Source of the DNA: Ornatilinea apprima
GTDB taxonomy: Bacteria > Chloroflexota > Anaerolineae > Anaerolineales > Anaerolineaceae
DNA length: 64,000 nt
Direction of reading: 5' to 3'
NCBI RefSeq assembly: GCF_001306115.1
Contig: NZ_LGCL01000039.1
Coordinates: 62,001 to 126,000 of the forward strand
Shown here: positions 24,368-59,018 of the stretch, piece after piece
Position numbering within the stretch: position 1 is the first letter of the stretch
Layout: each line of letters starts with the position of its first letter
Program-made: the position numbers and the translations under genes
Notes under the pieces: generated by a model
The model's input: the letters and a program-made list of their open reading frames with translations, nothing else
Database searches by the model: none
What the model was told of the DNA's origin: nothing

Positions 24368-24405
24368 GGTGGCTGTAGCTCAATGGCAGAGCGCTGCACT
24401 GTGGA
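24368..24405 (+). other. attL: 5' half of the host tRNA-His, cut in the anticodon loop
   Basis: 38 bases running from the G-1 position to the end of the anticodon loop (CTGTGGA, anticodon GTG) of a tRNA-His. They match the complete tRNA-His downstream at 34 of 38 positions. After GTGGA the sequence departs: the expected complement of the anticodon stem and the T arm are absent. The shared core TGCACTGTGGA is a likely crossover site. Confidence 0.7.
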
Positions 24406-24457: not shown

Positions 24458-24530
24458 GGTGGGCGTAGCTCAACGGCAGAGCGGTGCACTGTGGATGCAC
24501 AGGTTGTGGGTTCGAAACCCATCGCCCACC
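24458..24530 (+). tRNA. tRNA-His (GTG), complete, probably phage-borne
   Basis: 73 bases including G-1 and C73. Acceptor GTGGGCG pairs with CGCCCAC, anticodon stem GTGCA/TGCAC holds loop CTGTGGA, and the T arm has GTTCGAAAC. CCA is not encoded. It lies downstream of the integration junction, so I infer that the phage carries it and so replaces the interrupted host gene. Confidence 0.93.
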
Positions 24531-24573
24531 CTAGATCTTTTCTTCATCGGATATTCGGTTTTTAAGGTGCGTC

Positions 24574-24947: not shown

Positions 24948-25202
24948 TTAATTCTGATCCACTTCCACCAGTTCAAAGAAATCACCCAAAGGCCGGGCCA
25001 AGAGCTCATCTGGCGAAAGGCCAATCCCATCTAACAGCAAATTAGCCAAAGCAGCCAGGTCAATCGACTGGACGTTCTGAGATCGGTTAATCCAGCGATC
25101 CACCGTGGGGTAAGACACCCTGGCCTTCAAAGCCAAACGATGATTATTCGCCTCCCCTGACATCTTCAAGATCTCGCTCCCCTTGATTTGCAATCGCAAC
25201 AT
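24948..25202 (-). CDS. Small HTH repressor-like protein
   Basis: 84 residues from the ATG at 25202, chosen because GGAGG lies five bases before it. Residues ~10-45 form a Cro/C1-type helix-turn-helix: LKARVSYPTVDRWINRSQ gives the turn and recognition helix, and IDLAALANLLLDGIGLSPDELL is the usual following segment. It is divergent from the early operon across a gap rich in dyads, so it is the candidate lysogeny repressor. Confidence 0.75.
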   Translation of the reverse strand: MLRLQIKGSEILKMSGEANNHRLALKARVSYPTVDRWINRSQNVQSIDLAALANLLLDGIGLSPDELLARPLGDFFELVEVDQN

Positions 25203-28067: not shown

Positions 28068-29033
28068 ATGGACGAGGAAATTCTCAATAACATCATGGAA
28101 GTAAACCACCATAAATACTATTTCGAGATCCCGAATATGGTGGATGATCTGGAGCTTTCCCCTTATGCTTTCCGGCTTTACGCCCACCTCAAACGTGTGG
28201 CGGGGGAAAATGGAGCGTCCTGGCAGTCCAACTCCACCCTGGCAAAAGTGTGCAAAATGTCTGCGGGTTCGGTAGTAAACGCTAAACGAGAATTACAGGA
28301 TGCCGGGCTTATTGTGGTTACGCTGGAGACCACAAAGGATAATAACAGGTATCACAACATCACCATCGTGGATATTTGGGCTAATAACTTCAAGAAATTC
28401 ACCCAAAACGGCGTGGGTCGTTCATCTGGTGAACACCCCTCTTCACCAGGTGAACACCCCCCTTCACCAGGTGAACTAAAGAATAACCCTATTAAGAATA
28501 ACCCTGTTAAGAATAACCCTAATACTTGCGCCGTTCCACGGCGCGAGAGAGTAACAGCCGCCAAGAAGCAGGGTGATCTTTTGGATGGAATTCTTTCCTT
28601 TGCGGAGAAGTCGGAAGATCCTTTGGCAAACTTCCCCGAAGCGGTGAAACCTACTCTTAAGGCGTTTCTGGATCTTTGGAAAATTGACCCGCCCAGGCCG
28701 CCACAAAGAGGGCGAGGCGGTACATTCGCCCAATGGATCAAAGAGGCGCAAGATCTCCAGTCGGCTTGCAGAGATTACCCACTCAACAAGGTTTTACAGG
28801 CGGTCTATTCTGATTGGCTTAAATCAACCTATTGCGTAGATCACCCAGGCGCAATCTTGCGGTCAGTCAGGGGAAAGGTGATCGAATTCAGGGCGAAAGG
28901 AGTTCAAGCCGAAACACCCAAAGTTGGTCTGGAAAACTACGATCCAGCCGAGGTTGCGGAATTTCAGGCCAAACTCAATCAGGCGAGACAAAATTCTTCA
29001 TCCGGCCTTTCACCTTTTCCAGGTGTTGAATAA
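28068..29033 (+). CDS. Replication initiator protein with internal origin repeats (lambda O type)
   Basis: 321 residues from the ATG at 28068, GGAG seven bases upstream. N-terminal winged HTH (residues ~25-100; LSPYAFRLYAHLKRVAG, SNSTLAKVCKMSAGSVVNAKRELQDAGLI). A low-complexity linker (~118-150) is encoded by two sets of DNA tandem repeats. The C-terminal half (~180-290) resembles replisome-organiser proteins that load helicase. The helicase-loader gene follows at once, as O and P do in lambda. Confidence 0.8.
   Translation: MDEEILNNIMEVNHHKYYFEIPNMVDDLELSPYAFRLYAHLKRVAGENGASWQSNSTLAKVCKMSAGSVVNAKRELQDAGLIVVTLETTKDNNRYHNITIVDIWANNFKKFTQNGVGRSSGEHPSSPGEHPPSPGELKNNPIKNNPVKNNPNTCAVPRRERVTAAKKQGDLLDGILSFAEKSEDPLANFPEAVKPTLKAFLDLWKIDPPRPPQRGRGGTFAQWIKEAQDLQSACRDYPLNKVLQAVYSDWLKSTYCVDHPGAILRSVRGKVIEFRAKGVQAETPKVGLENYDPAEVAEFQAKLNQARQNSSSGLSPFPGVE
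28421..28520 (+). repeat. Probable phage replication origin: iterons plus AT-rich repeats
   Basis: Three iterons at 28421, 28442 and 28463, exactly 21 bases apart, each centred on a dyad (TTCACCAGGTGAA; the first has two changes). Directly after come three copies of AAGAATAACCCT at 28479, 28494 and 28509, 15 bases apart, which would suit an unwinding element. All lie inside the initiator gene, as in lambda. Confidence 0.7.
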
Positions 29034-29082
29034 TCCCAATTCCACATTCTAAAACTCTATCGAGTTAGAAAGGTAAGTCTAT

Positions 29083-29859
29083 ATGGATACCATGAGCAAT
29101 TTAACTCGCAAAATTGCAGATAGTGTGTCAAGAGTAAACACTTCAACGCCACCTTCACCACCAAAGCCCTATACCGGCATTTGTAAGCCGGATTGTGAGA
29201 TTTGCGGTGGTATTGGGTATGTCCGGCAAGATCTCCCTGTTAGCGATCCGGGGTTTGGTAAGGCGCAATTATGCCCGAATGTAGATCTCTTTACTCATTA
29301 CAAAGGCCGGAGCGGTCTGGAAAGTGATGAGCGCGACCTATCTTGGTCCAACATCGCTGACTTCAACGGTGTGGGAAAAGCAGTCGAGGCAGTTCAGACA
29401 GTAGTGGAGCGTGGCTATGGATGGATCTTTCTTTGGGGAGATTTTGGTTTAGCCAAGAGCCTCATCCTTAAGACAGCCGTTTCCTCATACATTCGAGAGC
29501 GCAAGGAGCCAGCGTCTTATGTGCGTATGGCAGAGCTTTTGGATCATCTCCGATCAGCTTATGACAGCAGCAATCCATCCGAGGACAGCCAGGCCAGGTT
29601 GGATTTCTGGTCTACCATTCCCCTTCTTTGCATAGACGAATTTGACCGCGTGCGTGATACAGCTTACGCAAGTGAACGCCGTTTTGTCTTGATGGATCGG
29701 CGCTATGAAAAGGCCTGTGGCAGGAAAAACATAACCATCATGGCCAGCAATTCAGATCCGGCCCTCATCGATGGTTATCTGCGGGACCGCATATTTGATG
29801 GTCGGTTCAAGGTCATTAAGTTGGTTGGAAAATCGGCCAGGCCGATGATGTCCTATTGA
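29083..29859 (+). CDS. DnaC/IstB-like AAA+ helicase loader
   Basis: 258 residues. A zinc-binding-like N-terminus (CKPDCEICGGIGY near residue 34), then a AAA+ module: Walker A WGDFGLAKSLIL near residue 118, Walker B LLCIDEFDR near 185, sensor 1 IMASNSDP near 224. It should place the replicative helicase at the origin marked by the upstream initiator. The helicase itself is not in the window, so the phage may use the host enzyme or encode it beyond the edge. Confidence 0.88.
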   Translation: MDTMSNLTRKIADSVSRVNTSTPPSPPKPYTGICKPDCEICGGIGYVRQDLPVSDPGFGKAQLCPNVDLFTHYKGRSGLESDERDLSWSNIADFNGVGKAVEAVQTVVERGYGWIFLWGDFGLAKSLILKTAVSSYIRERKEPASYVRMAELLDHLRSAYDSSNPSEDSQARLDFWSTIPLLCIDEFDRVRDTAYASERRFVLMDRRYEKACGRKNITIMASNSDPALIDGYLRDRIFDGRFKVIKLVGKSARPMMSY

Positions 29860-29890: not shown

Positions 29891-30475
29891 ATGCAAGAAT
29901 TACGAAATGGTGACACAGCAATTATGCTGGCACAGATGCAGAGCGGGTCCGTGGATGCGGTCATCACGGACCCGCCTTATGATGAGCTTTCCCCAAATTG
30001 GCTTGATGACCTCTTCCGGGTCGTCAAGCCGGGTGGGAATGTGATCATGTTTTGTTCTCCAGAAAATCAATTCTTCAAGCCGGATGAAATCCTTTTCTGG
30101 ATCAAAACACCGTCAACGAAAAACTTCCAAAAGCGGTGTGGTCGGTTCGTAGAAATGATCCTGGTCAAGCGTGGAGAAAAGGGCGCTTTCAATCCACTCC
30201 ATTGGTCTCAGATGACCGGGGTGTATGATGATCGATTGGTTCTTCCACCAATCCACCCTTACGAAAAGCCGTTGAGCCTTATTGAGCGCCTTATCCGCAT
30301 ATACACCAACCCAGGGGCGGTTGTTTTGGATCCATTTTGTGGTTCTGGAACAACTTTGGTTGCGTGCATGAACCTGAAACGCAAGGCAATTGGCATTGAG
30401 AAGGACCATTCCAAATACCTGTTAGCTCAGGATCGGCTTCTAGGTTTATTACCAGGTAGGCTTAAAGGTGAATAA
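29891..30475 (+). CDS. DNA adenine/cytosine-N4 methyltransferase (N4/N6 class, beta-type order)
   Basis: 194 residues from the ATG at 29891, AGAGG five bases before. Catalytic motif DPPYDEL is near residue 28 and the SAM motif DPFCGSGTT near residue 150, with catalysis before SAM binding. This short form without a target-recognition insert is common in phages and protects DNA from host restriction. No nuclease partner is present. The stop overlaps the sigma-factor ATG (TAATG). Confidence 0.92.
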   Translation: MQELRNGDTAIMLAQMQSGSVDAVITDPPYDELSPNWLDDLFRVVKPGGNVIMFCSPENQFFKPDEILFWIKTPSTKNFQKRCGRFVEMILVKRGEKGAFNPLHWSQMTGVYDDRLVLPPIHPYEKPLSLIERLIRIYTNPGAVVLDPFCGSGTTLVACMNLKRKAIGIEKDHSKYLLAQDRLLGLLPGRLKGE

Positions 30476-31269
30476 TGAAAACTTCTAATGGTTGTTTACT
30501 AGATGAGGATATAACCCGGCGTCTGTTAAAACAGGCGCAATCAGGGGATCAATCCGCGGTTGAAACACTTCTCCAGCGTAACCAACGGTTCATCCAGTCA
30601 ATTGCGCGGAAATACTATCATCCAGAGCGTATGAATGATCTGGAATTGGACGACCTGGTTCAATTGGGGTCAATAGGTTTCTGCATGGCAATCCAACGGT
30701 GGGATGATTCAAAAGAAAATCGCTTCTCCACCTATGCTTATTATTGGGTTCGCGCCTATATCCGAAGGGAGGCCCTGAAATCAGACGCGGGAACATCTGT
30801 GTCCTATCGTTTCTCCGAGAAGCTGATGGAGTTTCGGCGGGCCTATTCTAAAGTCTTCGCAGAACAAGGCAGGGAACCAACGGTAAGAGAGCTGGTGGAC
30901 GCTACCGGGATGCCGGAGGACGAAGTCGGTCTAGCAACCCTCTCCATCCAATCCGGATATTCTCACTCCCCCAGGCTTTCCGATGATGGAGAAGAACTGG
31001 ACGAAGGAGAGACAATTCCGAGTGAGGTAAACGTAGAGTCGGATGCCATCCATTCAGCCCTGTTGTCCGAGGTTGAGCTTATCGTTGCCCAAATGCCGAA
31101 GAAATACCAGACGGTTATGGCCCATCGGTTCAGCCTTTGGGGGCAGCCTGAAATGACGCAACGAGAGCTGTCAAAGAAAATGGGTGTCGCGTTTCAGCGT
31201 GTTCAAAAGATTGAAAAGAAGGCGTTGGACCATCTACGGCAACAACTTACCAACAGCCGATTGTTGTGA
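30475..31269 (+). CDS. Phage RNA polymerase sigma factor (sigma-70 family)
   Basis: 264 residues with all main regions: region 2 (residues ~35-105; ELDDLVQLGSIGFCMAIQRWD, FSTYAYYWVRAYIRRE), region 3 (~120-165; EPTVRELVDATGMPEDEV) and region 4 (~205-260; MTQRELSKKMGVAFQRVQKIEKKALDHLR). Region 1.1 is absent, as in alternative sigma factors. It is the best candidate to recognise the ten-copy phage promoter found through the element. Confidence 0.9.
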   Translation: MKTSNGCLLDEDITRRLLKQAQSGDQSAVETLLQRNQRFIQSIARKYYHPERMNDLELDDLVQLGSIGFCMAIQRWDDSKENRFSTYAYYWVRAYIRREALKSDAGTSVSYRFSEKLMEFRRAYSKVFAEQGREPTVRELVDATGMPEDEVGLATLSIQSGYSHSPRLSDDGEELDEGETIPSEVNVESDAIHSALLSEVELIVAQMPKKYQTVMAHRFSLWGQPEMTQRELSKKMGVAFQRVQKIEKKALDHLRQQLTNSRLL

Positions 31270-31280
31270 TCGAGGAATGA

Positions 31281-31311
31281 GCTTAACTTTTCTGGCCCTC
31301 AAAGTTTATAT
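31281..31311 (+). promoter_or_regulatory. Phage promoter P3
   Basis: TTAACT (31283), 17-base spacer containing CTCAAAGT, TTATAT (31306). It drives nrdG, the ParB-like gene, a hypothetical gene, the Tas-like gene and the array up to the terminator at 34254-34282. Confidence 0.78.
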
Positions 31312-31349
31312 AAACAACCTCATACCTTACCAGAAAGGAAAAGCAGCCC

Positions 31350-31988
31350 ATGATTCGAGTAAACAAAATCATCAATAGCAGTTTGGTGGACGGTCCCGGT
31401 GAGCGGACCGTTGTTTTTTTTCAAGGATGTTCAATCCGGTGTCCAGGGTGCCAGAATGTCGCCCTTTGGGATCCCAATTCTGGAGATCTCTACGATGAGC
31501 AAGATCTTGCCCGAAAACTGGCACACCTGGCCCAACCTCACGGCAACGTGACGATCTCCGGCGGTGAACCATTTAACCAGGTGCGCGGTTTGGCGTTTCT
31601 GGTTCGTGAGTTGAAACACTTGGGTGTGAAGAATATTCAGGTTTATTCCGGGTACACGTTTGAACAGTTGATAGCCGGCACAAACGGATCTTACCTTTGG
31701 GTGCGTGAAGTGTTGGATCAGATTGATGTGTTGGTGGATGGCCCTTTCATCCAGGCATTGGATGATCCCTTCATCACCTATCGGGGGAGCAGAAACCAAC
31801 GGCCTATCGATGTTCAACTCACCCTGAAATCAGCGCCGGGAAGTCCAGTCGTCTTGAATTGGGATGACGAGATCCAGATCAGTCAGGATGGAAATATCGT
31901 TCTTCCCATTGGCTTGTCAAAGCAATTCGATAGCATCGGCACCATCGAGCGGTCAAGAATGTGCGGTCAAACAACACTTGTCAGGTAA
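31350..31988 (+). CDS. nrdG: NrdG-like anaerobic ribonucleotide reductase activating enzyme
   Basis: 212 residues. Radical SAM motif CSIRCPGC at residues 27-34 (CX3CX2C), SGGEPF near residue 71 and VLVDGPF near residue 130 are NrdG features. It generates the glycyl radical on NrdD. No nrdD gene is present in the window, so either the phage carries it past 64,000 or the enzyme serves the host reductase to raise dNTP supply. The C-terminal 45 residues are longer than in most NrdG proteins. Confidence 0.88.
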   Translation: MIRVNKIINSSLVDGPGERTVVFFQGCSIRCPGCQNVALWDPNSGDLYDEQDLARKLAHLAQPHGNVTISGGEPFNQVRGLAFLVRELKHLGVKNIQVYSGYTFEQLIAGTNGSYLWVREVLDQIDVLVDGPFIQALDDPFITYRGSRNQRPIDVQLTLKSAPGSPVVLNWDDEIQISQDGNIVLPIGLSKQFDSIGTIERSRMCGQTTLVR

Positions 31989-32001
31989 AAGGAGAAAAAT
32001 T

Positions 32002-32670
32002 ATGGCGAGTCCATTTGTAGAAATTGTGCCCACCGATAGCGTGGTGATCACCGAAGAAAGCACGCGGTTGAACCTTTCCCCGGAAGATTATGCGGCGTTG
32101 AAGGCCAACGTTTCAGAGCATGGGGTAGTTTACCCGCTTACGGTGGATAAAAACCTTTGCGTTCTGGATTATGTTGAGCTGGCCCAGGCTTGTAAAGAGC
32201 TTGGCTTTCCTCATATCCCGGTTGTGGTTTATGAGAATGGAGCGCGAACCGTTCTCTCCAGAGACGAACTGAGAATGAGCGTTGCTCAAAACATCGCCCA
32301 CCAAGCAGTTGTTGGTTTTAGGGATAATGTCGAGGCTGCGTTCACACCAATTGTCAAGTCAATCAGTGCCGCGATCTCCAATTTTACACAATCGGTTTCG
32401 GGGGATATTCAGCCATTCGTGGAGGCCGTAAGCGAATATCTGGAAAGCCACCCGGAGTTATTGGATCCGGCCGTTTCTGATGATGAAGATGAGGAAATCA
32501 GCCAGGACGAGTTAGAGGATGAGGGTGTTGATCTTATCGCGTCAGGCTATGAGTGGGTTTGCCCAAAATGCGACTGGAAAAATGACGAGTTTGAGGTCAC
32601 AGAAACCGTCACCTGCAAGTCGTGCGGCGCAACCTTCAAGGTTGACGATTATAACCACGCTGTTGGTTAA
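32002..32670 (+). CDS. ParB-like N-domain protein with C-terminal zinc ribbon
   Basis: 222 residues from the ATG at 32002 (AAAGGAG upstream). Residues 1-105 follow the ParB/sulfiredoxin fold pattern (LSPEDYAALKANVSEHGVVYPLTV, IPVVVYENG), but the usual GxHR motif is replaced by LDYVEL, so nuclease or CTPase activity is doubtful. A very acidic stretch (~155-175) leads to a zinc ribbon with CPKC and CKSC. Role not known. Confidence 0.6.
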   Translation: MASPFVEIVPTDSVVITEESTRLNLSPEDYAALKANVSEHGVVYPLTVDKNLCVLDYVELAQACKELGFPHIPVVVYENGARTVLSRDELRMSVAQNIAHQAVVGFRDNVEAAFTPIVKSISAAISNFTQSVSGDIQPFVEAVSEYLESHPELLDPAVSDDEDEEISQDELEDEGVDLIASGYEWVCPKCDWKNDEFEVTETVTCKSCGATFKVDDYNHAVG

Positions 32671-32716
32671 CTCGCGCATCCATTCCACTTATTTTCATAA
32701 CAACAAAAGGTGAAAA

Positions 32717-33373
32717 ATGAGTTACGAACAGTCTGTTGACGATTATTCAGCCTGGTTTCGAGATGCAAAACTGGCATTGGTTCTTTCCAATCCCGACATT
32801 ACGGTGTTTGAAATGAAGTTGAACATTAATACCGTGATGTTGGGGTTCATGCAGAACAAAATTGTCATTTTGGGATGCCCTACAACAGAAGGAAATGGGC
32901 TGGTGTCCAGACCTGACAAGGGTTTGCCCTGGTTCTGCAGCGATCTTCCCCCATCAGAGCTTGGAGCAGCTTTTTTGAAGCAGAAATGGCAAAAAGATCT
33001 TGCGGTCAAAAGGTGGTTGGCAAGAGCCCAAGAGCTTATTGCAGATCCGACCCAGGAGGTCATTGAGTGGATTGAATTCCCGGGCAGGAAAATGACCAAA
33101 GGTGAGGCGATGGAGTTTTTGTACTGGTCAAAGCCGCAGGTATTTGAAAGCTGCGATGCCCTCCATTCAGCGCTCCCCACATTTTGGTCTGACTATGAGA
33201 ACAGGGTCCGGACCTCACCATTTGATTTTATGAGTGAGGTCTGCGTTGGTATTGGATACAGCGAGCATATGTTGTCGTGGTTGGTGGGTTTCCAAAAGAA
33301 ATTTGCCGAACTGGTCAAGACAAACCATAAACACTTATTATCACAACAGCAAAAGGAGGTGGAGAGTGTCTGA
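32717..33373 (+). CDS. Hypothetical protein preceding the Tas-like gene
   Basis: 218 residues, not recognised. AAAGGTGA site. Aromatic-rich helices in the C-terminal half (EAMEFLYWSKPQVFESCDAL, FMSEVCVGIGYSEHMLSW). Its last eight bases overlap the GTG start of the Tas-like gene, so the two are probably translationally coupled. That link makes it a candidate accessory of the putative TIGR-Tas unit, although a chance operon partner is equally possible. Confidence 0.6.
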   Translation: MSYEQSVDDYSAWFRDAKLALVLSNPDITVFEMKLNINTVMLGFMQNKIVILGCPTTEGNGLVSRPDKGLPWFCSDLPPSELGAAFLKQKWQKDLAVKRWLARAQELIADPTQEVIEWIEFPGRKMTKGEAMEFLYWSKPQVFESCDALHSALPTFWSDYENRVRTSPFDFMSEVCVGIGYSEHMLSWLVGFQKKFAELVKTNHKHLLSQQQKEVESV

Positions 33374-34073
33374 TGATGCATTGAGAGTGCTGGTTGATCT
33401 TCGAGATCTCACCATCCAAAAGATCAGGATTGGTTTTGGCAATCGGATAATGGCAATTGAGGGTGGGCGTGATCAAGCAGACGAAGCCACCATAGATATT
33501 TTGGATCGGTACAATTACCTATTCTCCGAACTGGAGGACGAGCTTAACAAAGACATCAGCAAGCTGGTTGCCAAATACCCCATCATCAACAAAATGATGG
33601 AGGTGCGGGGAATTGGACCAACTCTGGCGGCAAAACTGGTTTCGTTGATTGACATCAGAAAAGCCGACAGCGTTTCAGCGTTGTGGAGATATTGCGGATA
33701 CGGCGTTCAAGACGGTAAGCGAGAACGGCTGGTCAAGGGAGAGCGAGCTCACTTCAACCAAAGGGCGAAAACAGCATGTTATTTGATCGGGTCTTCGTTC
33801 CTTAAGTCCAGATCTCCATATCGCCGGGTGTATGACGATGCCCGGCAATATTATGAGGCTAACAGGAAAGATTGGACAAAAGCCCATATCCATAACGCGG
33901 CTTTACGGAAAATGGTCAAGGTGTTTCTTGCTCATCTTTGGAATGAGTGGAGAATTCTGGAAGGACTTCCCACAAAGCCGTTGTACGTCAATGAGAAATT
34001 GGGCCATACGACCGAGTTTCTTCCAGAAGAGTTCGGATGGAAAACGGACGAAGCCGTGTTAGAAACAGTGTGA
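33366..34073 (+). CDS. TasA-like protein: stand-alone IS110-type C-terminal/Nop-like RNA-binding domain
   Basis: 235 residues from the GTG at 33366, with AGGAGG six bases upstream. Residues ~15-70 are helical and probably coiled coil. The region ~72-115 carries the Transposase_20 signature of IS110/IS116/IS902 enzymes: VRGIGPTLAAKLVSLI, then SALWRYCGYG; a helical tail follows. The DEDD/RuvC catalytic domain of real IS110 transposases is absent, and no HNH or RuvC is fused. The stop codon lies inside the first unit of the 36-base array, matching published TIGR-Tas loci. A degraded IS110 relic is the alternative, but the well-placed RBS and conserved frame argue against it. Confidence 0.82.
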   Translation: MSDDALRVLVDLRDLTIQKIRIGFGNRIMAIEGGRDQADEATIDILDRYNYLFSELEDELNKDISKLVAKYPIINKMMEVRGIGPTLAAKLVSLIDIRKADSVSALWRYCGYGVQDGKRERLVKGERAHFNQRAKTACYLIGSSFLKSRSPYRRVYDDARQYYEANRKDWTKAHIHNAALRKMVKVFLAHLWNEWRILEGLPTKPLYVNEKLGHTTEFLPEEFGWKTDEAVLETV

Positions 34074-34256
34074 GCCAAGAACGTTTAGACGCCCATATAG
34101 ACACAGCGAGCCAACTTAAGGCAGAAACCCATTAATAATTAGCGAGCCGTTTTAAGGGAGAAACCCAGTCCAGGCAAAGCGAGCCAAATTGAAGAATTGC
34201 CCAAATTCTACAAGCGAGCCAATACTTTCAGTAAACCAAAGCAGTTGAGCGAAACC
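34070..34256 (+). repeat. Putative TIGR array (tandem interspaced guide RNA), five units
   Basis: Edge box GCGAGCC (GTGAGCC in the first) starts at 34070, 34106, 34142, 34179 and 34214, with a decayed GCGAAACC at 34249: spacing 36, 36, 37, 35, 35. Inside each unit a second box, consensus AGAAACCCA, begins 16-17 bases after the first. Between boxes lie two variable stretches of about 9 and 10-11 bases. It has no ORF, is on the same transcript as the Tas-like gene, and is ended by a terminator at once. Too short and the wrong architecture for CRISPR. Confidence 0.85.
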
Positions 34257-34282
34257 GCCCGGTAAACAGCCGGGCGGTTTTT
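34254..34282 (+). terminator. intrinsic terminator ending the array
   Basis: Nine-bp stem ACCGCCCGG / CCGGGCGGT, seven-base loop and TTTTT. It closes the P3 transcript directly after the last array unit. Confidence 0.92.
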
Positions 34283-34283
34283 C

Positions 34284-34314
34284 GTTTAACTTTCCTCATC
34301 TTCAAAGTTTATAT
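34284..34314 (+). promoter_or_regulatory. Phage promoter P4
   Basis: TTAACT (34286), 17-base spacer with TTCAAAGT, TTATAT (34309), 37 bases before the next start. Confidence 0.78.
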
Positions 34315-34350
34315 AAGCAACCCCAAATAATCACTAGAAGGAGTGAGCTT

Positions 34351-35007
34351 ATGAATTCTACGAGCAAAGAAATTATTAAACTGCTGAAGAAGGTTACGGC
34401 GACAGGCCATTCTCAATCACAGATCTTCGATGATTGGTTGGAAATTACTCACTTATCGCTGGAAGCCCTTCCCAAAATCGCCCAGGCTTATTCAAAAGGC
34501 GAGACATACACAGACCCTCCAGAGGTAGCAGAGGTGTTCAAGCGGGTTCAGTTCCGGTATGGCACATCTTTTGAGTTATTAAAGCAAGCCTTTGCAATCC
34601 TCATTCAATCTTGCAGTCGTTCGCAGGTGTTTTTCGGGAATGAGAATGGAATACCAGGAGACACCTCCCCGGATACATTAGGTGAGGTTTACATGGAGTT
34701 TGGCTTACCCTCCAAATATACCGGGCAGTTCTTCACCCCTTGGCCTATCGCTCAATTTATGGCGTTGGCTAGCATGAAGGACGTGGAAAATGAGGTCCAC
34801 GAAAGGATCAAGGAGGCGTGCAACAAAGATGTTTTCGCCCAGGCATTATTAGCAGCCTCAATGGTCATCAGAGATGGAAAAGAGGCGGGGCAGTTCTTCT
34901 TCGGAACCCTTCTTCCATACATAGCGCGGAGAACGAAGGAACAGGTGGAACCCGATCAGAAATTGAGATCTCATTACATGCGCCTAATTTGGGCGATCCG
35001 TTCTTGA
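34351..35007 (+). CDS. Truncated N-6 DNA methylase-like protein
   Basis: 218 residues. Residues ~45-165 resemble the N-terminal part of HsdM-like phage methylases: helical lead, then LGEVYMEFGLPSKYTGQFFTPWPIAQFMALASM. The SAM motif (DPxCGSG) and the catalytic NPPF/Y motif that should follow are missing; the frame ends soon after. A clamp-like fragment begins in another frame over its last 30 codons. It is therefore probably a remnant, or a short protein with a new role. Confidence 0.55.
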   Translation: MNSTSKEIIKLLKKVTATGHSQSQIFDDWLEITHLSLEALPKIAQAYSKGETYTDPPEVAEVFKRVQFRYGTSFELLKQAFAILIQSCSRSQVFFGNENGIPGDTSPDTLGEVYMEFGLPSKYTGQFFTPWPIAQFMALASMKDVENEVHERIKEACNKDVFAQALLAASMVIRDGKEAGQFFFGTLLPYIARRTKEQVEPDQKLRSHYMRLIWAIRS

Positions 35008-48492: not shown

Positions 48493-50508
48493 CTAAAATC
48501 CGTAGGCCATCTCCCAGGACGAAATAGCCCCGGCAAGTGTGTTCTCGTCCAGATCGCGCCCATTGTTATTGACAGTAATGTTTATGGTCTTGCTGTTATA
48601 AGTTGATAGATTGGCGCCCATATCAGGCAGCTTATTATTTGGGATAATGGTTCCAGTAGTGGAAGGCGTGAAAAATTCAGGTCCTTCTTCACCAACCAGG
48701 TAGGTTGTTCCAGGATAAACTGTGCCGCCCCTGGCTTTGCCGCCGGGTTTTCCTCCACCTCCACCGATCCCTAAAAGGTTGGCCGCCCAATCAGGGATAA
48801 CAGCGTCAGCAATTGCACTTAAGAACGCCTTGATTTTATCGATAGCGGTTTGAATTGCTTTTGCTATGTTGTCGAAGCGCGTTTTGATAGCGTCCAGCAC
48901 CTCAATTCCTTTATTTTTCAGGTTGGTAAACCAGTTGATAATGTCTTGAATTGCGCCATCAACAACAGCTTTCCCTTCCTCAAAGGTCATGCCAAAGAAG
49001 GTGTCCAAAACCCAGGTTGCAAAGAGTTGCATGTTTTCCCAAATATTGGTAACCAGGTCCTCAAAGATGCCCTTAACGGTTTCTGCAGCACCAGGGAAAT
49101 CCCCAGTGAATATTTGCATAATGAGCGTGCCGAGCGACAGGATGGTGTCCATCGCCCAGGTAAGCGAATTTTGAATGATGGGCCAGTAATTAAGAAAGGC
49201 TTCAACAGCAAAATTAATGGCAATACCCAGGTTGGTTAGAAAAGCCTGAATTAATGGGCCGTTGTCGTTCAACCAGGTTCCCATTTGATCCAGCAAACCT
49301 CCGAGTGTGGTGAGGTATTCTGTTACCAATGGGCCGAGAGTTTCTCCCAGGTTGCCAAAGATTTCAGTTATTACCTCACTTATGCCAGGCCCCTGTTCGG
49401 TGAAGAATTGACCGAACTTCTCAAAAGTAGAGAAGATCCCAGAGATGGTTTCTTGCAATCCATCGGGCAACCCGGCGGTCAAGGCTTCCAGAAATTCGCT
49501 GGTGAACTTCCCATCTTGCATAACTCCAGCGTCACCAATTGCGCCAAATAGGTTGCCGAAATATGAACGGATTGGGCCGGTGGCCTTATCCATTGTGGTG
49601 ATAAACCCAGTGATTGACGTGCCAAGTTGGAGGCCAAAGTCTTTAATCTTTGCCATTGTTTCAGGGCTGGAAAGCATTCCCACAAAGTCAGTGACATAGG
49701 GTTGAATGGCTTGAAAAGTCCCGGTGAAGAATCCCCTCAACCCTACCTCTTTAATGTCCTGCAGGGATGAAATTAAGCCTGAAAAGGTTGTAGCTTGCTT
49801 TTCAGCGGCCCCGCCAAAATCTTCTTCAATACTTTTGGTGATCGCTTCAATGGCTTGATCCGCAGGAACCAGGCCTTTTGAGATCATCTTTTCAAGCTCG
49901 GCGGTGGTAATGCCAAATGAGTCAGCCAAAATTTGACGGACAGGTATACCCGCTTCCGTTAATTGCATGATCTCTTGTCCAGCAAGTTTCCCTTTGGATT
50001 TTATCTGGCCAAGAGCAAGAGCAATCCGGTTCATAGTGTCGCCGCTTGCTCCAGTGGCAGAGGTGTAATCCACCATAGCGGTAGTTAACCGTTGCGCCTC
50101 ATTCGTGGTGAAACCATAAGCCATAGCCATGCGAAAACTATCGGCAATATCTTTTTGCTGGAAGGGTGATTTTATAGCGAGTTCCTGGATCCAGCCTTGA
50201 AGTTTTTGGGCTTCAAGGCCTGCAGCGCCCATAGCTTCGCCTAGCGAAGATGCCATACCAGCATTGACCATCTCACGAGCAGTAAGGGATTGAAGAGACA
50301 TTCCCAATCTCTCATAATCAGCGTAGGCCGATAAAGCAGCTTTTCCGAGATTTGAGATCCCTGAAAAGATATTTTGAATAATTGCTGCAGACAGGATCCC
50401 GCCAGCGATATTACCCAAACCGCCTAAAGCAGCCCCCACCTTACCGAGTGGGGCAGAGGCGTTGTCTTGACCATCAACCACAATAGATATTTTGTACGTT
50501 TCGCCCAT
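48493..50508 (-). CDS. Tape measure protein
   Basis: 671 residues. Starts ISIVVDGQDNASAPLGKVGAALG, as many tape measures do; the tape-measure domain (~75-270) includes TTNEAQRLTTAMVDYTSATGAS and AGQEIMQLTEAGIPVRQIL. Several hydrophobic helices lie at ~390-480. It sets tail length and may help DNA entry. A short tape measure implies a moderately short siphovirus tail. Follows the tail chaperone frameshift gene. Confidence 0.93.
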   Translation of the reverse strand: MGETYKISIVVDGQDNASAPLGKVGAALGGLGNIAGGILSAAIIQNIFSGISNLGKAALSAYADYERLGMSLQSLTAREMVNAGMASSLGEAMGAAGLEAQKLQGWIQELAIKSPFQQKDIADSFRMAMAYGFTTNEAQRLTTAMVDYTSATGASGDTMNRIALALGQIKSKGKLAGQEIMQLTEAGIPVRQILADSFGITTAELEKMISKGLVPADQAIEAITKSIEEDFGGAAEKQATTFSGLISSLQDIKEVGLRGFFTGTFQAIQPYVTDFVGMLSSPETMAKIKDFGLQLGTSITGFITTMDKATGPIRSYFGNLFGAIGDAGVMQDGKFTSEFLEALTAGLPDGLQETISGIFSTFEKFGQFFTEQGPGISEVITEIFGNLGETLGPLVTEYLTTLGGLLDQMGTWLNDNGPLIQAFLTNLGIAINFAVEAFLNYWPIIQNSLTWAMDTILSLGTLIMQIFTGDFPGAAETVKGIFEDLVTNIWENMQLFATWVLDTFFGMTFEEGKAVVDGAIQDIINWFTNLKNKGIEVLDAIKTRFDNIAKAIQTAIDKIKAFLSAIADAVIPDWAANLLGIGGGGGKPGGKARGGTVYPGTTYLVGEEGPEFFTPSTTGTIIPNNKLPDMGANLSTYNSKTINITVNNNGRDLDENTLAGAISSWEMAYGF

Positions 50509-50517
50509 CGGTTTTCC

Positions 50518-50990
50518 TCATCGTTTGCGCGGCTTGGTGCGCTTTTGGACCTGGTTTTCACACGAAATCATCTGGAGGTCTTCGGCAATATATCTCATCG
50601 GGATTTGCGAGAATGTGAGCGGGTCGCAGTGATAGACGTCTCTACAAAGTTGCAACCGGATATATTGCCAGGGTGCTGGCTTTTTGGTCCACAGGTGAGC
50701 CAGCACCCCGAGTTTTAGTTTTTTGAGTCCGTATACTCCATTACCTTTTCCAGGATCGTTTTGATGACACCTTTAAGGTCGATCAGCTTGCGATGCCGGA
50801 ACCCGCCAACAACGAGGCGGTCCAAAATGTCAAAGACCTCACCAACGGTGTGCCCTTGCGAATTTCCGGTGGTCCAATCGAGCAAGATCTCATAATCTCC
50901 GGCGGTGAATTCTTCGACATTCACTTCAATATCAATGGTGCGGGGCTTCGGTTGGGTGGATGGAGCTTTTTTTGATCGAGCTGTAGCCAT
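50518..50990 (-). CDS. Tail assembly chaperone, -1 frameshift product (gpGT-like)
   Basis: The short product (90 residues) is encoded 50990-50715. On the minus strand the slippery heptamer A_AAA_AAC at 50724-50718 sits one codon before the stop, in the correct phase. Slipping back one base continues into the frame ending at 50518 and adds 66 residues (LKLGVLAHLWTKKPAPWQYI onward). A short and a fused chaperone made this way, directly before the tape measure gene, is the classic siphovirus layout. Confidence 0.85.
50715..50990 (-). CDS. Tail assembly chaperone, short form (gpG-like)
   Basis: 91-codon frame. N-terminal basic stretch (MATARSKKAPSTQPKPRT) followed by IDIEVNVEEFTAGDYEILLDWTTG, a pattern common in gpG-like chaperones. 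It coats the tape measure protein during tail assembly. The stop TAA (50715-50717) follows the slippery site directly. AGAGA site after the leader dyad GTTGTGAAAACAAC. Confidence 0.82.
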   Translation of the reverse strand: MATARSKKAPSTQPKPRTIDIEVNVEEFTAGDYEILLDWTTGNSQGHTVGEVFDILDRLVVGGFRHRKLIDLKGVIKTILEKVMEYTDSKN

Positions 50991-51035
50991 GTTCTTGTCT
51001 CTTTTCTATTGAGTTGTTTTCACAACTTCATAAAA

Positions 51036-51491
51036 TTACGCTGAAACGGTGGTTTGAGAGATCTGGGCGGTTTTCAATGCAAATTCAGCCAGCAGAGCAT
51101 CCGGGCTAGAGGCTTCACCTCCACCAGCGTTAACCGTGGTCAGAAAGCCAAAATCGGTTTCCCACTTGTAGTGAGTTGCGGCGTTACCGCGTGGATACCA
51201 GATAAACTTGACCTTCTTCTTTGCGGCCTTTGCATCGAACAGCTTTTTGGTGGGGTCAGCGTCATTCTCCGTGTAAATCGCCTTGACGGTTACATCTCCA
51301 GGCGCGATCTTTCCGGCGGTCAGAATGGCGGTATTACCCTCGGCGGTATACGCTTCACCGATCTGCGTTTCAAAGCCGGAGATTTCGACAGACGCGGCAA
51401 AACCACTCATATCAGTGGGTGAAGCATCACCCTCGATCTGGTAAGCGACTTCGGCATCAGCGAAAGACATTCCATCAGTAGTTTGAGACAT
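51036..51491 (-). CDS. Major tail tube protein
   Basis: 151 residues. Beta-rich tube protein pattern: MSGFAASVEISGFETQIGEAYTA, then ILTAGKIAPGDVTVKAIYTENDAD and the late alternate strands (GNAATHYKWETDFGFLTTVNAG). Right length and place, between the tail completion gene and the chaperones. Strong GAGGTG site, in keeping with high expression. Confidence 0.85.
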   Translation of the reverse strand: MSQTTDGMSFADAEVAYQIEGDASPTDMSGFAASVEISGFETQIGEAYTAEGNTAILTAGKIAPGDVTVKAIYTENDADPTKKLFDAKAAKKKVKFIWYPRGNAATHYKWETDFGFLTTVNAGGGEASSPDALLAEFALKTAQISQTTVSA

Positions 51492-51503
51492 TTTTCACCT
51501 CAT

Positions 51504-51938
51504 CTAAAAACAGTTGACGTTTACAGAAATTATTTCGTGGAGATAGGTTTCTCCAGCGATTTCAGCCATACCATCAGCGTTAGATGGTTGGTCATACATG
51601 ATGGCCTTAATCAGGCTATGGTTTTTGATGTTCAAGCAAGCGGTTGCGACTTCCTGTTCCAGGTCATCCAATAGGTTTTCTGCGGTTTGTTCCGAGTAAG
51701 ACTGGTCAGGCTTTTTGGGGTACAGAACAAAGATGTGAATGTTGAGAACAAAATTTGAATTGAGCCCCAATCCGGTAAGCTTATCCCTTGCAGATCCAGA
51801 AGAGGTGATATACACCACCGGGCTTGCGCCGTTGAAGTCTGCGACCTGATATGGGTAAACTGCTTGCGCTTTTGTTACGCTTGCTTGCAAATAGGCGGCA
51901 AGCGCGGATCTAACATCTTTTCGATTGACCACCGTCAT
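51504..51938 (-). CDS. Tail terminator/completion-like protein
   Basis: 144 residues. Start VRSALAAYLQASVTKAQAVYPYQ and the middle SPVVYITSSGSARDKLTGLGLNSNFVLNIHIFVLY follow the gpU-like/tail terminator pattern. The place, between the head-tail joining proteins and the tube gene, agrees. Starts overlapping the upstream gene stop by four bases. Confidence 0.7.
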   Translation of the reverse strand: MTVVNRKDVRSALAAYLQASVTKAQAVYPYQVADFNGASPVVYITSSGSARDKLTGLGLNSNFVLNIHIFVLYPKKPDQSYSEQTAENLLDDLEQEVATACLNIKNHSLIKAIMYDQPSNADGMAEIAGETYLHEIISVNVNCF

Positions 51939-52327
51939 TGAGCAAATCCTCGTAAGAATTCTCTTGCAACCGCCCGGCTAATGCGTGGTCCGTCCTCATC
52001 CCGAACCCTGGCGTAGAAGGCGTGTTCCCCGCCGCGAGCGTGTTCAATTGGGCCATATACGGCTGTCTTTTCACCTGATCTAGGGTTTTCTGCGTTTGGA
52101 TCTATGAAGATCACCCCACGAGGTCCGGCAGCAGTAAACTCATATCTCATTCTGTGGCTAGCACGCAAAGCCCCGGTATCTACATGAGTTTTTCGTATAG
52201 CAGATTGGTGTGTCAAGATCAACCCGGCTTGCACCGCCAAGCCCAATGCGCCACCTGGTCTTAAGGCGCGGATATGAGCGGAGTTGGCTTTTTGTGCCTT
52301 TTGAATACCTCGAATAGTGGCGGTCAT
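51935..52327 (-). CDS. HK97 gp10-like head-tail connector
   Basis: 130 residues. Family pattern of gp10-type neck proteins: a basic helix at the N-terminus, then VDTGALRASHRMRY near residue 50 (VDTG is the hallmark) and the ISRAVAREFL ending. Attaches tail to head. Overlaps both neighbours by four bases. Confidence 0.75.
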   Translation of the reverse strand: MTATIRGIQKAQKANSAHIRALRPGGALGLAVQAGLILTHQSAIRKTHVDTGALRASHRMRYEFTAAGPRGVIFIDPNAENPRSGEKTAVYGPIEHARGGEHAFYARVRDEDGPRISRAVAREFLRGFAQ

Positions 52328-52662
52328 CTGTTAATCACGTCCTCTATTACAAGCTGGTAGGTGGTTTGACCTCGAAAGTCATCCCACGGAGAAACGCCCT
52401 TCACCAGGTAGGTTTCTCCATCCACCACCACCGAACAACCTTCGGAAATTGCGAGGCGCGTTTCAGATTGCAAATACACCTCATAGACTTTGGTGGGTGA
52501 TTGCAATTCCATGCGCCGGATCGTTTCTGATGAGACAGGCATTAGCGGGGTAACCATTACATCAGCCAACTTCGACCAGGCAGAGGACCGCTTTCCATCG
52601 ACAATATCTGCGGGCTTTTGAAGGACAGCACTTTTCCAGGCAAGATGAGCAAACGAGGTCAT
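52324..52662 (-). CDS. Head closure/head-tail joining protein
   Basis: 112 residues. Small beta-barrel pattern with MVTPLMPVSSETIRRMEL and SVVVDGETYLVKGVSPW, as in phage head-closure proteins of the gp16/gpFII type. Located between the first connector and the gp10-like gene. GAGGATTATGT site. Confidence 0.65.
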   Translation of the reverse strand: MTSFAHLAWKSAVLQKPADIVDGKRSSAWSKLADVMVTPLMPVSSETIRRMELQSPTKVYEVYLQSETRLAISEGCSVVVDGETYLVKGVSPWDDFRGQTTYQLVIEDVINR

Positions 52663-53102
52663 ACATAATCCTCATTCTTTTCTTGGAAATCAAGCCGGAT
52701 CGTGTCGCCTACGAGTGGCGCATCACCATAACGGAGCAAGATCTTCTTTTCGAGTCTGGCAATAGCCTTCTCCACCTGCTCAGCGAGCTGGTTGAGATCT
52801 TCCCGGCGAGGACCTAGCGCGATATTGACTGTGTCAATGTTGCCGGATATGTTTTCCAGGCACCGCCGTTCGGCCCGGTCCAGAAATTCACTGATCCGAT
52901 TACCCTCAACTATGGAAAGAACAGAGTCAGTAACCGTACCGATATCCAATTGGTAACCCATCTCGAATAAAGAGGCAGAGATTGGATCCACCAGATCCGC
53001 GTTGTTGCCATCGTGGGTTGCTCCATCAAGCCCGGCAACGGTCATTTTTCCACCGCACCGAGCGATCAAAACAGTTTCTATTTGAGCGCGTGTCAATGCC
53101 AT
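52659..53102 (-). CDS. Head-tail connector (gp6/gp15-like)
   Basis: 147 residues from the ATG at 53102; the longer frame starts in a hairpin. Helical pattern with LTRAQIETVLIARCGGKM at the start and a strongly helical C-terminal half (LNQLAEQVEKAIARLEKKIL). Position after the capsid suits a DNA-packaging connector. No clear ribosome site is seen because the hairpin lies right before it. Confidence 0.55.
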   Translation of the reverse strand: MALTRAQIETVLIARCGGKMTVAGLDGATHDGNNADLVDPISASLFEMGYQLDIGTVTDSVLSIVEGNRISEFLDRAERRCLENISGNIDTVNIALGPRREDLNQLAEQVEKAIARLEKKILLRYGDAPLVGDTIRLDFQEKNEDYV

Positions 53103-53110
53103 AAGAGAAA

Positions 53111-53133
53111 GGGGCGGGCTTTTCACCCGCCCC
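53111..53133 (-). terminator. strong hairpin upstream of connector gene
   Basis: GGGGCGGG / CCCGCCCC stem, seven-base loop; on the minus strand it is followed by TTTCTCTT and then the next ATG. Likely a partial terminator that lowers expression after the capsid gene. Confidence 0.65.
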
Positions 53134-53147
53134 ACCTTTCAACTTTT

Positions 53148-53336
53148 CTATCCGGCGGGTTCGCTTTCGTTATCGCTGCCGGGCTTTTCCTCATCCTTCT
53201 TTACGGTTTTTCCGGTTTTCGAGGACAAAGCCTTTTCCAGCCTTTCCAGGCGTTGGTCAATTGAATCGAGCCGTTCAGCGATATGCTCCAGGGCTTCGGT
53301 TTCGCGGATGTTTTTAAGGGCTTCTTTAACTCCCAT
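53148..53336 (-). CDS. Small coiled-coil head protein
   Basis: 62 residues. Residues 5-40 are a heptad-rich helix (LEHIAERLDSIDQRLERLEKAL); the rest is polar and charged. AGAGGTG site. Located right after the capsid gene. Not recognised; it may be a minor head or assembly factor. Confidence 0.6.
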   Translation of the reverse strand: MGVKEALKNIRETEALEHIAERLDSIDQRLERLEKALSSKTGKTVKKDEEKPGSDNESEPAG

Positions 53337-53349
53337 TCAACACCTCTTC

Positions 53350-54429
53350 TTATCGACCGTAAGCGGAAGGAACGGTGTAGGTTGAGCCGGAGTCGAGGAA
53401 CATGACACAACCATTGAGGCGGTTGCCAACACCAAAGCCGCGGCGCATCTGGTAGTACGCGCTTTCGAGAGGAAATTCTTCATCGCGGGCAACCAGGGTC
53501 AGGCCAGAGGGCAATCCGGTTTCAGGCGGGTCAACACGTTCAATGATCGGCTTCGGAGCGTCCATGTGAACACCGACCATGTAATTGGCCGGAACGCGGT
53601 CCCATTCCACAATCCATGCACCGCTGGAGTGGCGCCCCTTGATCCGGCCCGGCAACCCGGCAGGAAGTCCAATCACCTGCGCGGTATTAGCGCCAGGGAC
53701 GATAAACTTGTCCCCAACTTCTTCAACCATCGCAAGGGCCAGCACTTTGGCGGTCTGCGCGGAATTGATGAATACCACCAGGTTGTCGCCATAACCAAAG
53801 TGCTCGTAGATCTCCGCGACAATGGACTTGATGGGATCGTTAGTGTCCGAGATGGACGAAGCCGCATAGCCAGAAACCAGGTAATGGTTGTCCTGTGCTT
53901 CGGTGTCCGATGAGACAACGGCGGGATACAGCGTGCCGTCATTGTTGGCAAGCGGGACAACCGACAAAACACCGTGAATTTCGTCTTGGAAAGACCATGT
54001 GGTGTTGTTGAACAGGGCGCGGAGGATCTCACGGCGCACAGAATTTGCGGCACGGATTTGGAGGCTATCCAGATGGATATTCAGATCTTTTACGGACATA
54101 TAAGCCATCTGGACCCGGTTACCGCCAACAGCGTCCTGGAAGTCAAGCAGAGGCAGGGCGATATCCCACGATCCACTGGCTTTTGTGTTAGCGGGCGGGG
54201 CCTGGTTTGTTCCGGGCTGCATGTAACCAGAACCCGGCAGCTTGTATCGGCGTTTGAAGTCCGAGGTCCGCTCATCCACAAACACGGAAAGGGCGCGGTT
54301 GATTTCCTCATCAATACGAGCGATTTCCTGTTGAACCGCATCGTATACGATTTGCTGGCCCACCTGGTTTACAAAGGTGCGATCTGCAGCGTAGTCCTGC
54401 ACATTGAGCAAGCCAAAGATATTCGACAT
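53350..54429 (-). CDS. Major capsid protein, HK97 fold
   Basis: 359 residues. Capsid pattern of the phage E-like class: helical N-arm (TFVNQVGQQIVYDAVQQEIARIDEEIN), E-loop region ~55-110, long spine helix near 120-150 and the late GSTYTVPSAYGR end. NSAQTAKVLALAM near residue 225 and DRVPANYMVGVHMDAP near 285 fit the A-domain. A near-perfect GGAGGTGAA site gives high translation. No separate protease is recognised. Confidence 0.88.
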   Translation of the reverse strand: MSNIFGLLNVQDYAADRTFVNQVGQQIVYDAVQQEIARIDEEINRALSVFVDERTSDFKRRYKLPGSGYMQPGTNQAPPANTKASGSWDIALPLLDFQDAVGGNRVQMAYMSVKDLNIHLDSLQIRAANSVRREILRALFNNTTWSFQDEIHGVLSVVPLANNDGTLYPAVVSSDTEAQDNHYLVSGYAASSISDTNDPIKSIVAEIYEHFGYGDNLVVFINSAQTAKVLALAMVEEVGDKFIVPGANTAQVIGLPAGLPGRIKGRHSSGAWIVEWDRVPANYMVGVHMDAPKPIIERVDPPETGLPSGLTLVARDEEFPLESAYYQMRRGFGVGNRLNGCVMFLDSGSTYTVPSAYGR

Positions 54430-54443
54430 AATTCACCTCCAAA

Positions 54444-54839
54444 TTAGCGTCCGGCAACGTACAGGCATTTCGTGCCATCCGGCAGAGAGCCAACAAAGCC
54501 AACCACCACAGAGACAGTACCAGCGGCGGTGTCTACTTTCCCGGCATCGTCAGACAGGTAGACCGGAGCCATAGCATTTAAGCTGGACACGGTAAAACCC
54601 GATACATATCCAGCCATCAAAACCGGGCAGGCGACACCAGCCCCAACACTTTCTAACGCAATACCGATGAAGGTGTTAGCGGCGGCATCATTCGCGTCAG
54701 CAACAACGAGCAAGCCGGAAGTGTTGAGGGTCACAGCTTGGCCAGCGGTCACGGCAACAGCAGTCTTATATCCAAGAACTTCGCTCTTGCCGGGGTATAC
54801 CTGGGCAATTTTGGAAGTCGTTTTTGTAATTTCAGCCAT
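54444..54839 (-). CDS. Head decoration-like protein (DUF2190-like)
   Basis: 131 residues. Pattern KTAVAVTAGQAVTLNTSGLL, then TFIGIALESVGAGVACPVLMAGY is the DUF2190/decoration fold. It lies directly before the capsid gene, the standard position. Strong GAGG site and small, soluble beta-rich sequence. Confidence 0.8.
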   Translation of the reverse strand: MAEITKTTSKIAQVYPGKSEVLGYKTAVAVTAGQAVTLNTSGLLVVADANDAAANTFIGIALESVGAGVACPVLMAGYVSGFTVSSLNAMAPVYLSDDAGKVDTAAGTVSVVVGFVGSLPDGTKCLYVAGR

Positions 54840-54874
54840 TGTTTACCTCACTCTAAAGACTTATTTTCACAATC

Positions 54875-55558
54875 CTACAAAGTAAAGATACGATTGGGCT
54901 GGTCGTTATTCTGGTTATTGCCCTGGTTGGCTTGTGGCTTGGTCTGCAGGTTCGGTTTGGGCGTCCCTCCAGACTTCTTTTGACCGCTCGGATCTACAAG
55001 CCAGAAAGGCTTTTCTTTGGCAATCAACTCCACAGCTTCTTTTACGCCCTTAAAATCCCCGGTTTCTTCCTGGGAAATTTTTGAGCGATCAATGACCAAC
55101 CAAACATCTCCAGCGGCTTCTGGTCGGAAGCCAACCTCACCAGCAAGGCGAACAACCTCGGCCTTCAACAGCCTTTCGTTTGCTTCGGCCTTAAACTTTT
55201 CAGCATCAGCGAGGGCTTGTGCGGCCTTTTCTTCGGCTTTTTTGATGGCATCCTGGGCCTTCTCCAACTCGGATTTCTGCGCTTCGTCAGCTTGCCGCTT
55301 GGCTTCAACGAGTGCTTTCGCATCATCCAGCTTCTCAACACCTAGCGTTTTGAGAATATCTGCGATGGTGCTGCTTCTGGCTTGCTTTGCGCGATCCGCA
55401 AACATAGCGTCCAGTTCGGCCTGAGTGTAGGACTTTTTTTCATCCTTCGGCTTTTCGCCACCATTCCCACCATCTCCATTGTTACCGCCAGTTGAACCCC
55501 CGGCGTCAGGGTCATCGGAGAAATAAAATGTGGGCCGAATAAAATGCAGGTTTTTCAT
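54875..55558 (-). CDS. Scaffold-like capsid assembly protein
   Basis: 227 residues from the ATG at 55558; the frame upstream runs into the terminator hairpin. A long, charged central coil (residues ~50-145; DAKALVEAKRQADEAQKSEL, DAIKKAEEKAAQALADAEKF) with Gly/Asn-rich N-terminus is the usual make-up of phage scaffolds. The C-terminal basic part (QKKSGGTPKPNLQTKPQ) would bind the capsid shell. A protease domain is not seen. Confidence 0.82.
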   Translation of the reverse strand: MKNLHFIRPTFYFSDDPDAGGSTGGNNGDGGNGGEKPKDEKKSYTQAELDAMFADRAKQARSSTIADILKTLGVEKLDDAKALVEAKRQADEAQKSELEKAQDAIKKAEEKAAQALADAEKFKAEANERLLKAEVVRLAGEVGFRPEAAGDVWLVIDRSKISQEETGDFKGVKEAVELIAKEKPFWLVDPSGQKKSGGTPKPNLQTKPQANQGNNQNNDQPNRIFTL

Positions 55559-55613
55559 AGACCATCCCTTCATCATCCCGGTTTTTCCGCAACCGTAGCG
55601 TAGAATAAAAAAA

Positions 55614-55653
55614 CACAGAACCCGGAGCCAAAATTTTGGCTTCGGGTTCTGTG
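55614..55653 (-). terminator. intrinsic terminator between minor-head and scaffold genes
   Basis: Long stem CACAGAACCCG...CGGGTTCTGTG with an inner GGCTCC/GGAGCC-type arm; on the minus strand TTTTTTT follows. Lies inside the late operon, so probably partial. It shares a 23-base block with a region at 60519-60541. Confidence 0.85.
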
Positions 55654-55699
55654 CCTCGGTCAAGCTAATGAGATTATAGCACGTTCAAGGCGTTTGACA

Positions 55700-59016: not shown

Positions 59017-59018
59017 AA

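Follow-up and report, generated by a model that had tools for sequence, protein, structure and literature searches.

The window analysed here, a stretch of 64,000 nucleotides from Ornatilinea apprima, carries within a prophage a small gene, tasA, which is directly followed by an array of alternating short repeats and by an intrinsic terminator (Table 1). The locus is, with little room for doubt, a TIGR-TasA system and a further member of the kind published by Faure 2025 (PMC12045711). The protein family, the solo-Nop architecture, the anatomy of the array, the terminator and the borders of the prophage are established. Sequence, predicted structure, the anatomy of the array and the relatives all speak for the initial annotation of the locus as a nuclease-less Tas protein with a dual-repeat TIGR array.

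Table 1. Features of the TIGR-TasA locus and its surroundings (window coordinates)
Feature	Position	Strand	Remarks
tasA, 235 aa, solo Nop-domain TIGR effector without nuclease domain	33366..34073	+	start GTG 33366; phmmer, AlphaFold2, Foldseek
Ribosome-binding site of tasA, AGGAGG	33354..33359	+	read from sequence
TIGR array of five dual-spacer units between six edge boxes, of which the outermost two are degenerate	34069..34258	+	
Unit 1: spacer A AGAACGTTT, loop AGACGCCCA, spacer B TATAGACAC	34078..34104	+	
Unit 2: spacer A ACTTAAGGC, loop AGAAACCCA, spacer B TTAATAATT	34114..34140	+	
Unit 3: spacer A TTTTAAGGG, loop AGAAACCCA, spacer B GTCCAGGCA; 18 spacer bases equal a tRNA-His 3' end in a same-family genome	34150..34176	+	
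Unit 4: spacer A AATTGAAGA, loop ATTGCCCA, spacer B AATTCTACA	34187..34212	+	
Unit 5: spacer A ATACTTTCA, loop GTAAACCA, spacer B AAGCAGTTG	34222..34247	+	
Intrinsic terminator joined to shortened last edge repeat	34252..34284	+	inverted repeat I6; likewise in Salicola and Microcystis phages
218-aa protein, unknown family	32717..33373	+	end overlaps tasA start by 8 nt
ParB-like protein, C-terminal zinc ribbon	32002..32670	+	phrog_26377 E 3.6e-5; Pfam ParB_N E 0.016, under cut-off
Complete phage-borne tRNA-His (GTG), just inside attL, replaces broken host gene	24459..24531	+	ARAGORN
attL, carrying the 5' half of host tRNA-His; the break lies in the anticodon loop, at core ACTGTGGA (24398-24405)	24368..24405	+	directly behind hisS

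The sequence of TasA was compared with PDB sequences by phmmer. It matches the TasH entry 21kl with an E of 5.3e-32 (over residues 6-226), seven further TasH entries, and 9mty, a TIGR-TasR structure, with an E of 1.1e-29, while the next matches all lie at E > 0.6. The AlphaFold2 model, obtained with a 14-sequence alignment as input, has a mean predicted local distance difference test score (pLDDT) of 90.1. Its Foldseek ranks 1-11 are occupied by tigRNA-bound TasH/TasR complexes only, followed by the IS621 and ISCro4 recombinases, the IS110-family recombinases scoring E values of 3e-4 to 8e-3; the structural comparison proposed in the initial annotation thus places TasH and TasR at the top and turns out in favour of that annotation. 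No nuclease family was found in Pfam up to E 1, which upholds the annotation of a 235-residue protein devoid of a nuclease. Likewise, an N-terminal DEDD catalytic domain was not found with Pfam, Transposase_20 being a weak match under the cut-off (E 0.077). PHROG 4285, labelled 'transposase', matches TasA with an E of 5.8e-51, and this label probably takes in Tas proteins. The alignment of TasA begins at TasH residue 71 and the open reading frames of eight close viral relatives (L006-L013) are 226-258 aa long, so that the protein is a solo Nop protein, TasA in the sense of Faure 2025. By sequence, fold and tree, TasA is closer to Tas than to IS110 proteins.

Behind tasA, two short repeats alternate with spacers of 8-10 nt, giving two spacers per unit of 35-37 nt. 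The edge box GCGAGCC is exact at 34106, 34142, 34179 and 34214. The first edge box, at 34070, reads GTGAGCC (one change) and overlaps the stop codon of tas (TGA, 34071-34073), and the last, at 34249, reads GCGAAAC (two changes) and continues into the terminator; the spacings are 36, 36, 37, 35 and 35. The box positions, the spacings, the decay of the last box and the overlap with the stop codon had all been annotated correctly, except that the box at 34070 is not exact. The annotated mid-unit box is present as well, but in the exact form AGAAACCCA in two of the five units only (34123 and 34159), the other three loops being AGACGCCCA, ATTGCCCA and GTAAACCA. Edges of the type AGCGAGCC[A/G] and loops of the AGAAACCCA type are both of the form AG...CCA (box C CCA plus the shared start of box D), and the loop start deviates from this shared start motif in two of five loops. 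The first and last edges are truncated and a terminator follows the array, as in dual-repeat TIGR-Tas. The two arms of the terminator (34252-34262 and 34270-34280) are complementary at 11 of 11 positions, and the terminator lies right after the array as annotated; it was not listed by a generic terminator scan.

The longest chain of edges (steps of 34-38, no more than one mismatch allowed per edge core) is 5 in the window as compared to 1 (63 cases) or 2 (37 cases) in 100 windows simulated with a first-order Markov model. The array is therefore far beyond chance, and chance repeats were rejected on the basis of both the simulated windows and the arrays in relatives. A CRISPR array was also rejected, since there is no single 25-36-nt repeat with spacers of similar size and two short repeats alternate instead. 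The array begins inside the last bases of tasA and extends as far as the terminator, and the gene and its array could therefore share a transcript. The promoter P3, from which the initial annotation had this transcript start, is not borne out, as promoter-like sites in 30000-34500 number 8 as compared to 5.2 +/- 2.3 in shuffles.

A viral profile scan with a five-protein alignment yielded 50 loci; a viral scan with the single protein and a search of 100 relatives of the host yielded no homologue. Identity in the best segment is 47-62% for the nine closest viral loci (L006-L014), in all of which an array with a period of 34-38 nt, GCGAGCC-type edges and ACCC-type loops adjoins tas. L014 contains a partial gene only, and L015, the other end of the same contig, was excluded from the count. 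The Tas open reading frames become longer in more distant loci, up to 429 aa in L020. Dual-repeat arrays occur in at least 17 of the 50 viral loci (L006-L014, L016, L017, L019, L020, L022, L023, L027 and L053), and L021 has a short array. The repeat pair of the window, AGCGAGCC / AGAAACCC, recurs identically in L023 with 29 edge boxes in a chain. A search of genome contigs gave four relatives, including L056, L057 and L059, and the arrays of the Patescibacteria contigs L057 and L059 have nearly the repeats of the window. In a 28-row tree, one branch with 100/99 support parts dual-array from stem-array Tas; the window lies on the dual side, where its Tas pairs with L006 (99/93). Other placements are uncertain because of several long branches.

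Some observations weigh against this identification of the locus. No array is present in the sequence available for L018 (38% identity) or on the 4.8-kb contig of L056, a Chloroflexota fragment (50% identity) that starts inside tas; the arrays which the initial annotation expected behind homologues were thus found in the nine closest viral loci and not in these two. Furthermore, the loops of units 1, 4 and 5 and the edges 1 and 6 of the window are degenerate.

In some relatives, near-duplicate units with spacers a few bases apart are seen (L027 at 5631 and 5703, the first units of L057, and L059), which look as if arrays grow by unit copying and drift, not by acquisition of new spacers. A different kind of array was observed in Mycobacterium phage Euphoria, where five consecutive hairpins with ~30-nt loops (L005:2617-2953) stand upstream of gp70, a 'transposase', before this solo Tas gene. 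Five such hairpins are also present in each of 11 loci (L028-L037 and L039, of which L032 and L037 repeat L005), and similar ones in L024, L038, L040 and L050. Many hairpins are of the form CA-N8/9-CGAnnCCCA-N9, and many spacers vary among the phages; among the 21 loci inspected, L018, L041 and L046 have no hairpins of that form. These hairpins resemble the stem-loop TIGR arrays described in Faure 2025, whose authors may already know the mycobacteriophage arrays, as a mycobacteriophage review is cited there. Searching 1.6 Mb with the mycobacteriophage guides (41 regex-derived pairs, some off-register) gave no perfect match and three one-mismatch matches, one of them in the published geometry. 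Such stem-loop-like arrays are seen in many sequenced mycobacteriophages, for which guides and genomes are plentiful.

By analogy with the published systems, the array would be cut inside the edge repeats to give five tigRNAs of ~36 nt. A TasA dimer would hold one tigRNA, whose two ~9-nt spacers would pair with opposite strands of a DNA site of ~18 bp, and the site would be unwound and bent, not cut. We infer this RNA processing and DNA binding from the description in Faure 2025 (PMC12045711). RNA-guided binding and bending without cutting is the likely mode of TasA, which could then serve as a programmable roadblock or DNA bender. Genuine TIGR-Tas targets are described as hard to identify and the functions of nuclease-less TasA as less apparent, and TasA has been proposed as an integrase aid (PMC12045711). 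Among the matches listed in open-licence PMC papers, there was no study of natural TasA targets.

The guides were searched as 5'-A followed by the reverse complement of B, a target reading suggested by the 8-nt 3' overhangs reported in PMC12045711, where gaps of 1-2 bp in the target are tolerated. The guides may silence rival phages or plasmids, their true targets being mobile elements outside the data searched, a role suggested as possible in Faure 2025 and to which we give close to an even chance. In its favour, the best match in the window outside the array is 15/18, with none at 16/18 or above, and the own genome has no match with two or fewer mismatches for the five guides at gap 0. Three-mismatch matches at gap 0 in the own genome number 15 as compared to 11 for reversed controls, and when a 1-bp gap and no more than three mismatches are allowed, guide 3 has 7 matches there as compared to 5 for controls. 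Against silencing stand the exact 9+9 stretches in IMG/VR, which number 0, 5, 0, 34 and 29 for units U1-U5 (2 for a looser form of U3), the U5 matches falling in 12 unrelated contexts, mostly AT-rich contigs. In 0.85 Mb of mostly partial phage contigs, none of 131 units (126 of other arrays and the five of the window) reached 17/18 in either geometry; mispaired controls were similar, with one control match at 17. No guide target was shown in the window, the own genome or IMG/VR, and the silencing of a rival phage put forward in the initial annotation gained no support from the 9+9 split searches there and in the family genomes.

A second possibility arises from guide 3 and the attachment site of the prophage. 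The prophage, siphovirus-like and 43,261 bp long from core to core, is bordered on the left by attL and on the right by an attR core ACTGTGGA with the other half of tRNA-His at window coordinate 67659-67666 (in L066), next to a tyrosine integrase gene (Phage_integrase E 1e-27). The complete tRNA-His just inside its left end should keep the host alive. Guides 1, 3, 4 and 5 were searched as 8+8 letters with gaps of 0-4 in 147 family genomes (422 Mb), and gave 0, 1, 3 and 1 matches, respectively, as compared to 1, 7, 0 and 1 for reversed controls; none of these matches was in the own genome. Only the match of guide 3 extends cleanly to 9+9. It is an 18/18 match with a 1-bp gap, TTTTAAGGG G TGCCTGGAC, at G116:C18:6933-6951, G116 being a same-family genome from a sister genus of the host, and is the sole match of its pattern among the 147 genomes. 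The site covers the last 13 bases of the G116 tRNA-His (6939-7012, ARAGORN) and six beyond, and begins 24 bp from the insertion core. Next to the gene lies a hisS that shares 55% identity with that of the window over 358 residues. Around the core, 27 bases are identical between the empty site of the window and G116, so that G116 has an intact attachment site of the kind used by the prophage. Guide 3 scores 5/9 + 6/9 at the site of its own host and 3/9 + 3/9 at the phage tRNA-His, both of which should therefore escape it. Of 126 guides from other arrays, none exceeds 13/18 at the G116 locus.

These findings make guide 3 a candidate for action on host tRNA-His, at the 3' end of the gene and thus at the type of locus to which the phage attaches, in G116-like hosts. 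By binding beside attB it would aid or bar integration, or lower host tRNA-His while the phage supplies its own, and we hold this account at somewhat less than an even chance. In its favour, the prophage itself is inserted into the orthologous tRNA-His, within the anticodon loop, and brings along a tRNA-His that guide 3 does not match, and the proposed aid to integrases is in line with it. The match is also striking in that the sole exact one falls in a gene orthologous to the attachment site (~150 bp of 2.3 Mb).

A number of results nevertheless count against it. Perfect 9+9 matches at gaps 0-2 are expected at 0.037 per guide and 0.15 over four guides, so the match by itself is unremarkable. 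There is no clear overall enrichment, as the totals for the four guides are 5 matches as compared to 9 for reversed controls, and near matches of guide 3 (1-bp gap, three mismatches or fewer) number 436 in the 147 genomes as compared to 375 for its reversed control. Among 30 loci around these near matches, a tRNA was present at the exact one only, and nine further chosen near-match loci had none. The site is single and in a single genome, and the attachment site of the own host fails to match. The criterion of an attachment gene was set after the fact, no other guide has such a match, and the highest score among the 126 units of other arrays, compared with 32 tRNAs, is 15/18. The sequence evidence taken together leaves the G116 site a tentative candidate that may, with the balance slightly on the negative side, be a real target. 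With similar reserve, it is conceivable that tigRNAs of temperate phages with TasA can be aimed at the bacterial attachment locus. In hosts related to the present one, guide 3 would then direct a DNA-bending complex to the tRNA-His 3' end beside attB, where it would promote, prevent or modulate integration, or silence the host tRNA while the phage provides a copy of its own that the guide does not match. If true, this would be the first natural target for a TasA guide within the open-licence literature searched, and would support the speculation in Faure 2025 that TasA complexes serve phage integration.

Since several repeats are degenerate (the loops of three units and the first and last edges), the array could be partly decayed. 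A decayed and non-functional array is improbable, however, as the published Salicola CGphi29 array varies too and tasA is intact with a good ribosome-binding site. An IS110-family transposase remnant beside chance repeats, to which the Transposase_20 and PHROG 4285 matches might point, is extremely improbable and was ruled out by the arrays in relatives. The array recurs in the nine closest viral loci and is beyond chance, the homologues being moreover of like length and TasH/TasR outscoring every IS110 structure in sequence and fold.

The TIGR-TasA system sits in the early, rightward half of the prophage. This half includes a weakly repressor-like gene (24948-25202, E 0.005) and replication genes (28068-29859), and late leftward genes, including tape measure, head and terminase, lie within 48493-60485. 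The gene of the 218-aa protein and tasA are, judging from their overlap, in the same operon. The weakly ParB-like gene, two genes upstream of tasA, may correspond to the tasParB that has been published. In eight relatives, 11 neighbour genes were compared with Pfam (8 of them) or PHROGs (9), and no ParB match was found. Further upstream and in the same direction, 30475-31269 and 31350-31988 appear by eye to encode a phage sigma-70-like factor and a radical-SAM anaerobic ribonucleotide reductase activator.

The prophage around this TasA system has mapped borders and its host genome is available, and the locus yields one concrete, testable candidate target at an attachment-type locus. The IS110-family bridge-RNA recombinases (IS621, ISCro4) have in common with TasA the Nop-like RNA-binding fold, but they carry a catalytic domain of the DEDD type and use a single bridge RNA (PMC12045711), both of which are absent from the present locus. 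The Microcystis phage Mvi-JY20 has a solo Tas (XAI95461, PP438412) with 37% identity to TasA, and resembles the window in its TGCGAGCC edge, its CGAAACCCA loop and a terminator fused to the last edge; it differs in a longer array (nine edge boxes in one chain), in the phage and in the spacers. The solo Tas of this clear TIGR array (L002:3911-4990) is annotated as 'hypothetical protein'. A published parallel is SpTIGR-TasH of Salicola phage CGphi29 (PMC12045711; PDB 21kl, 9w04), the Nop domain of which is 35% identical to TasA (tblastn). It shares with the window a AAGCGAGCCA-type edge, an AACCA loop, an array behind tas and a terminator fused to the last edge, and its array is also variable, with GCGAGTC and GCTAGCC edges and altered loops; unlike TasA, SpTasH has an N-terminal HNH nuclease and cuts. 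FpTIGR-TasA of Flavonifractor plautii (PMC12045711), likened here by its description only, consists of a solo Nop TasA and a TIGR array like those of the window, and is reported to bind 36-nt RNAs.
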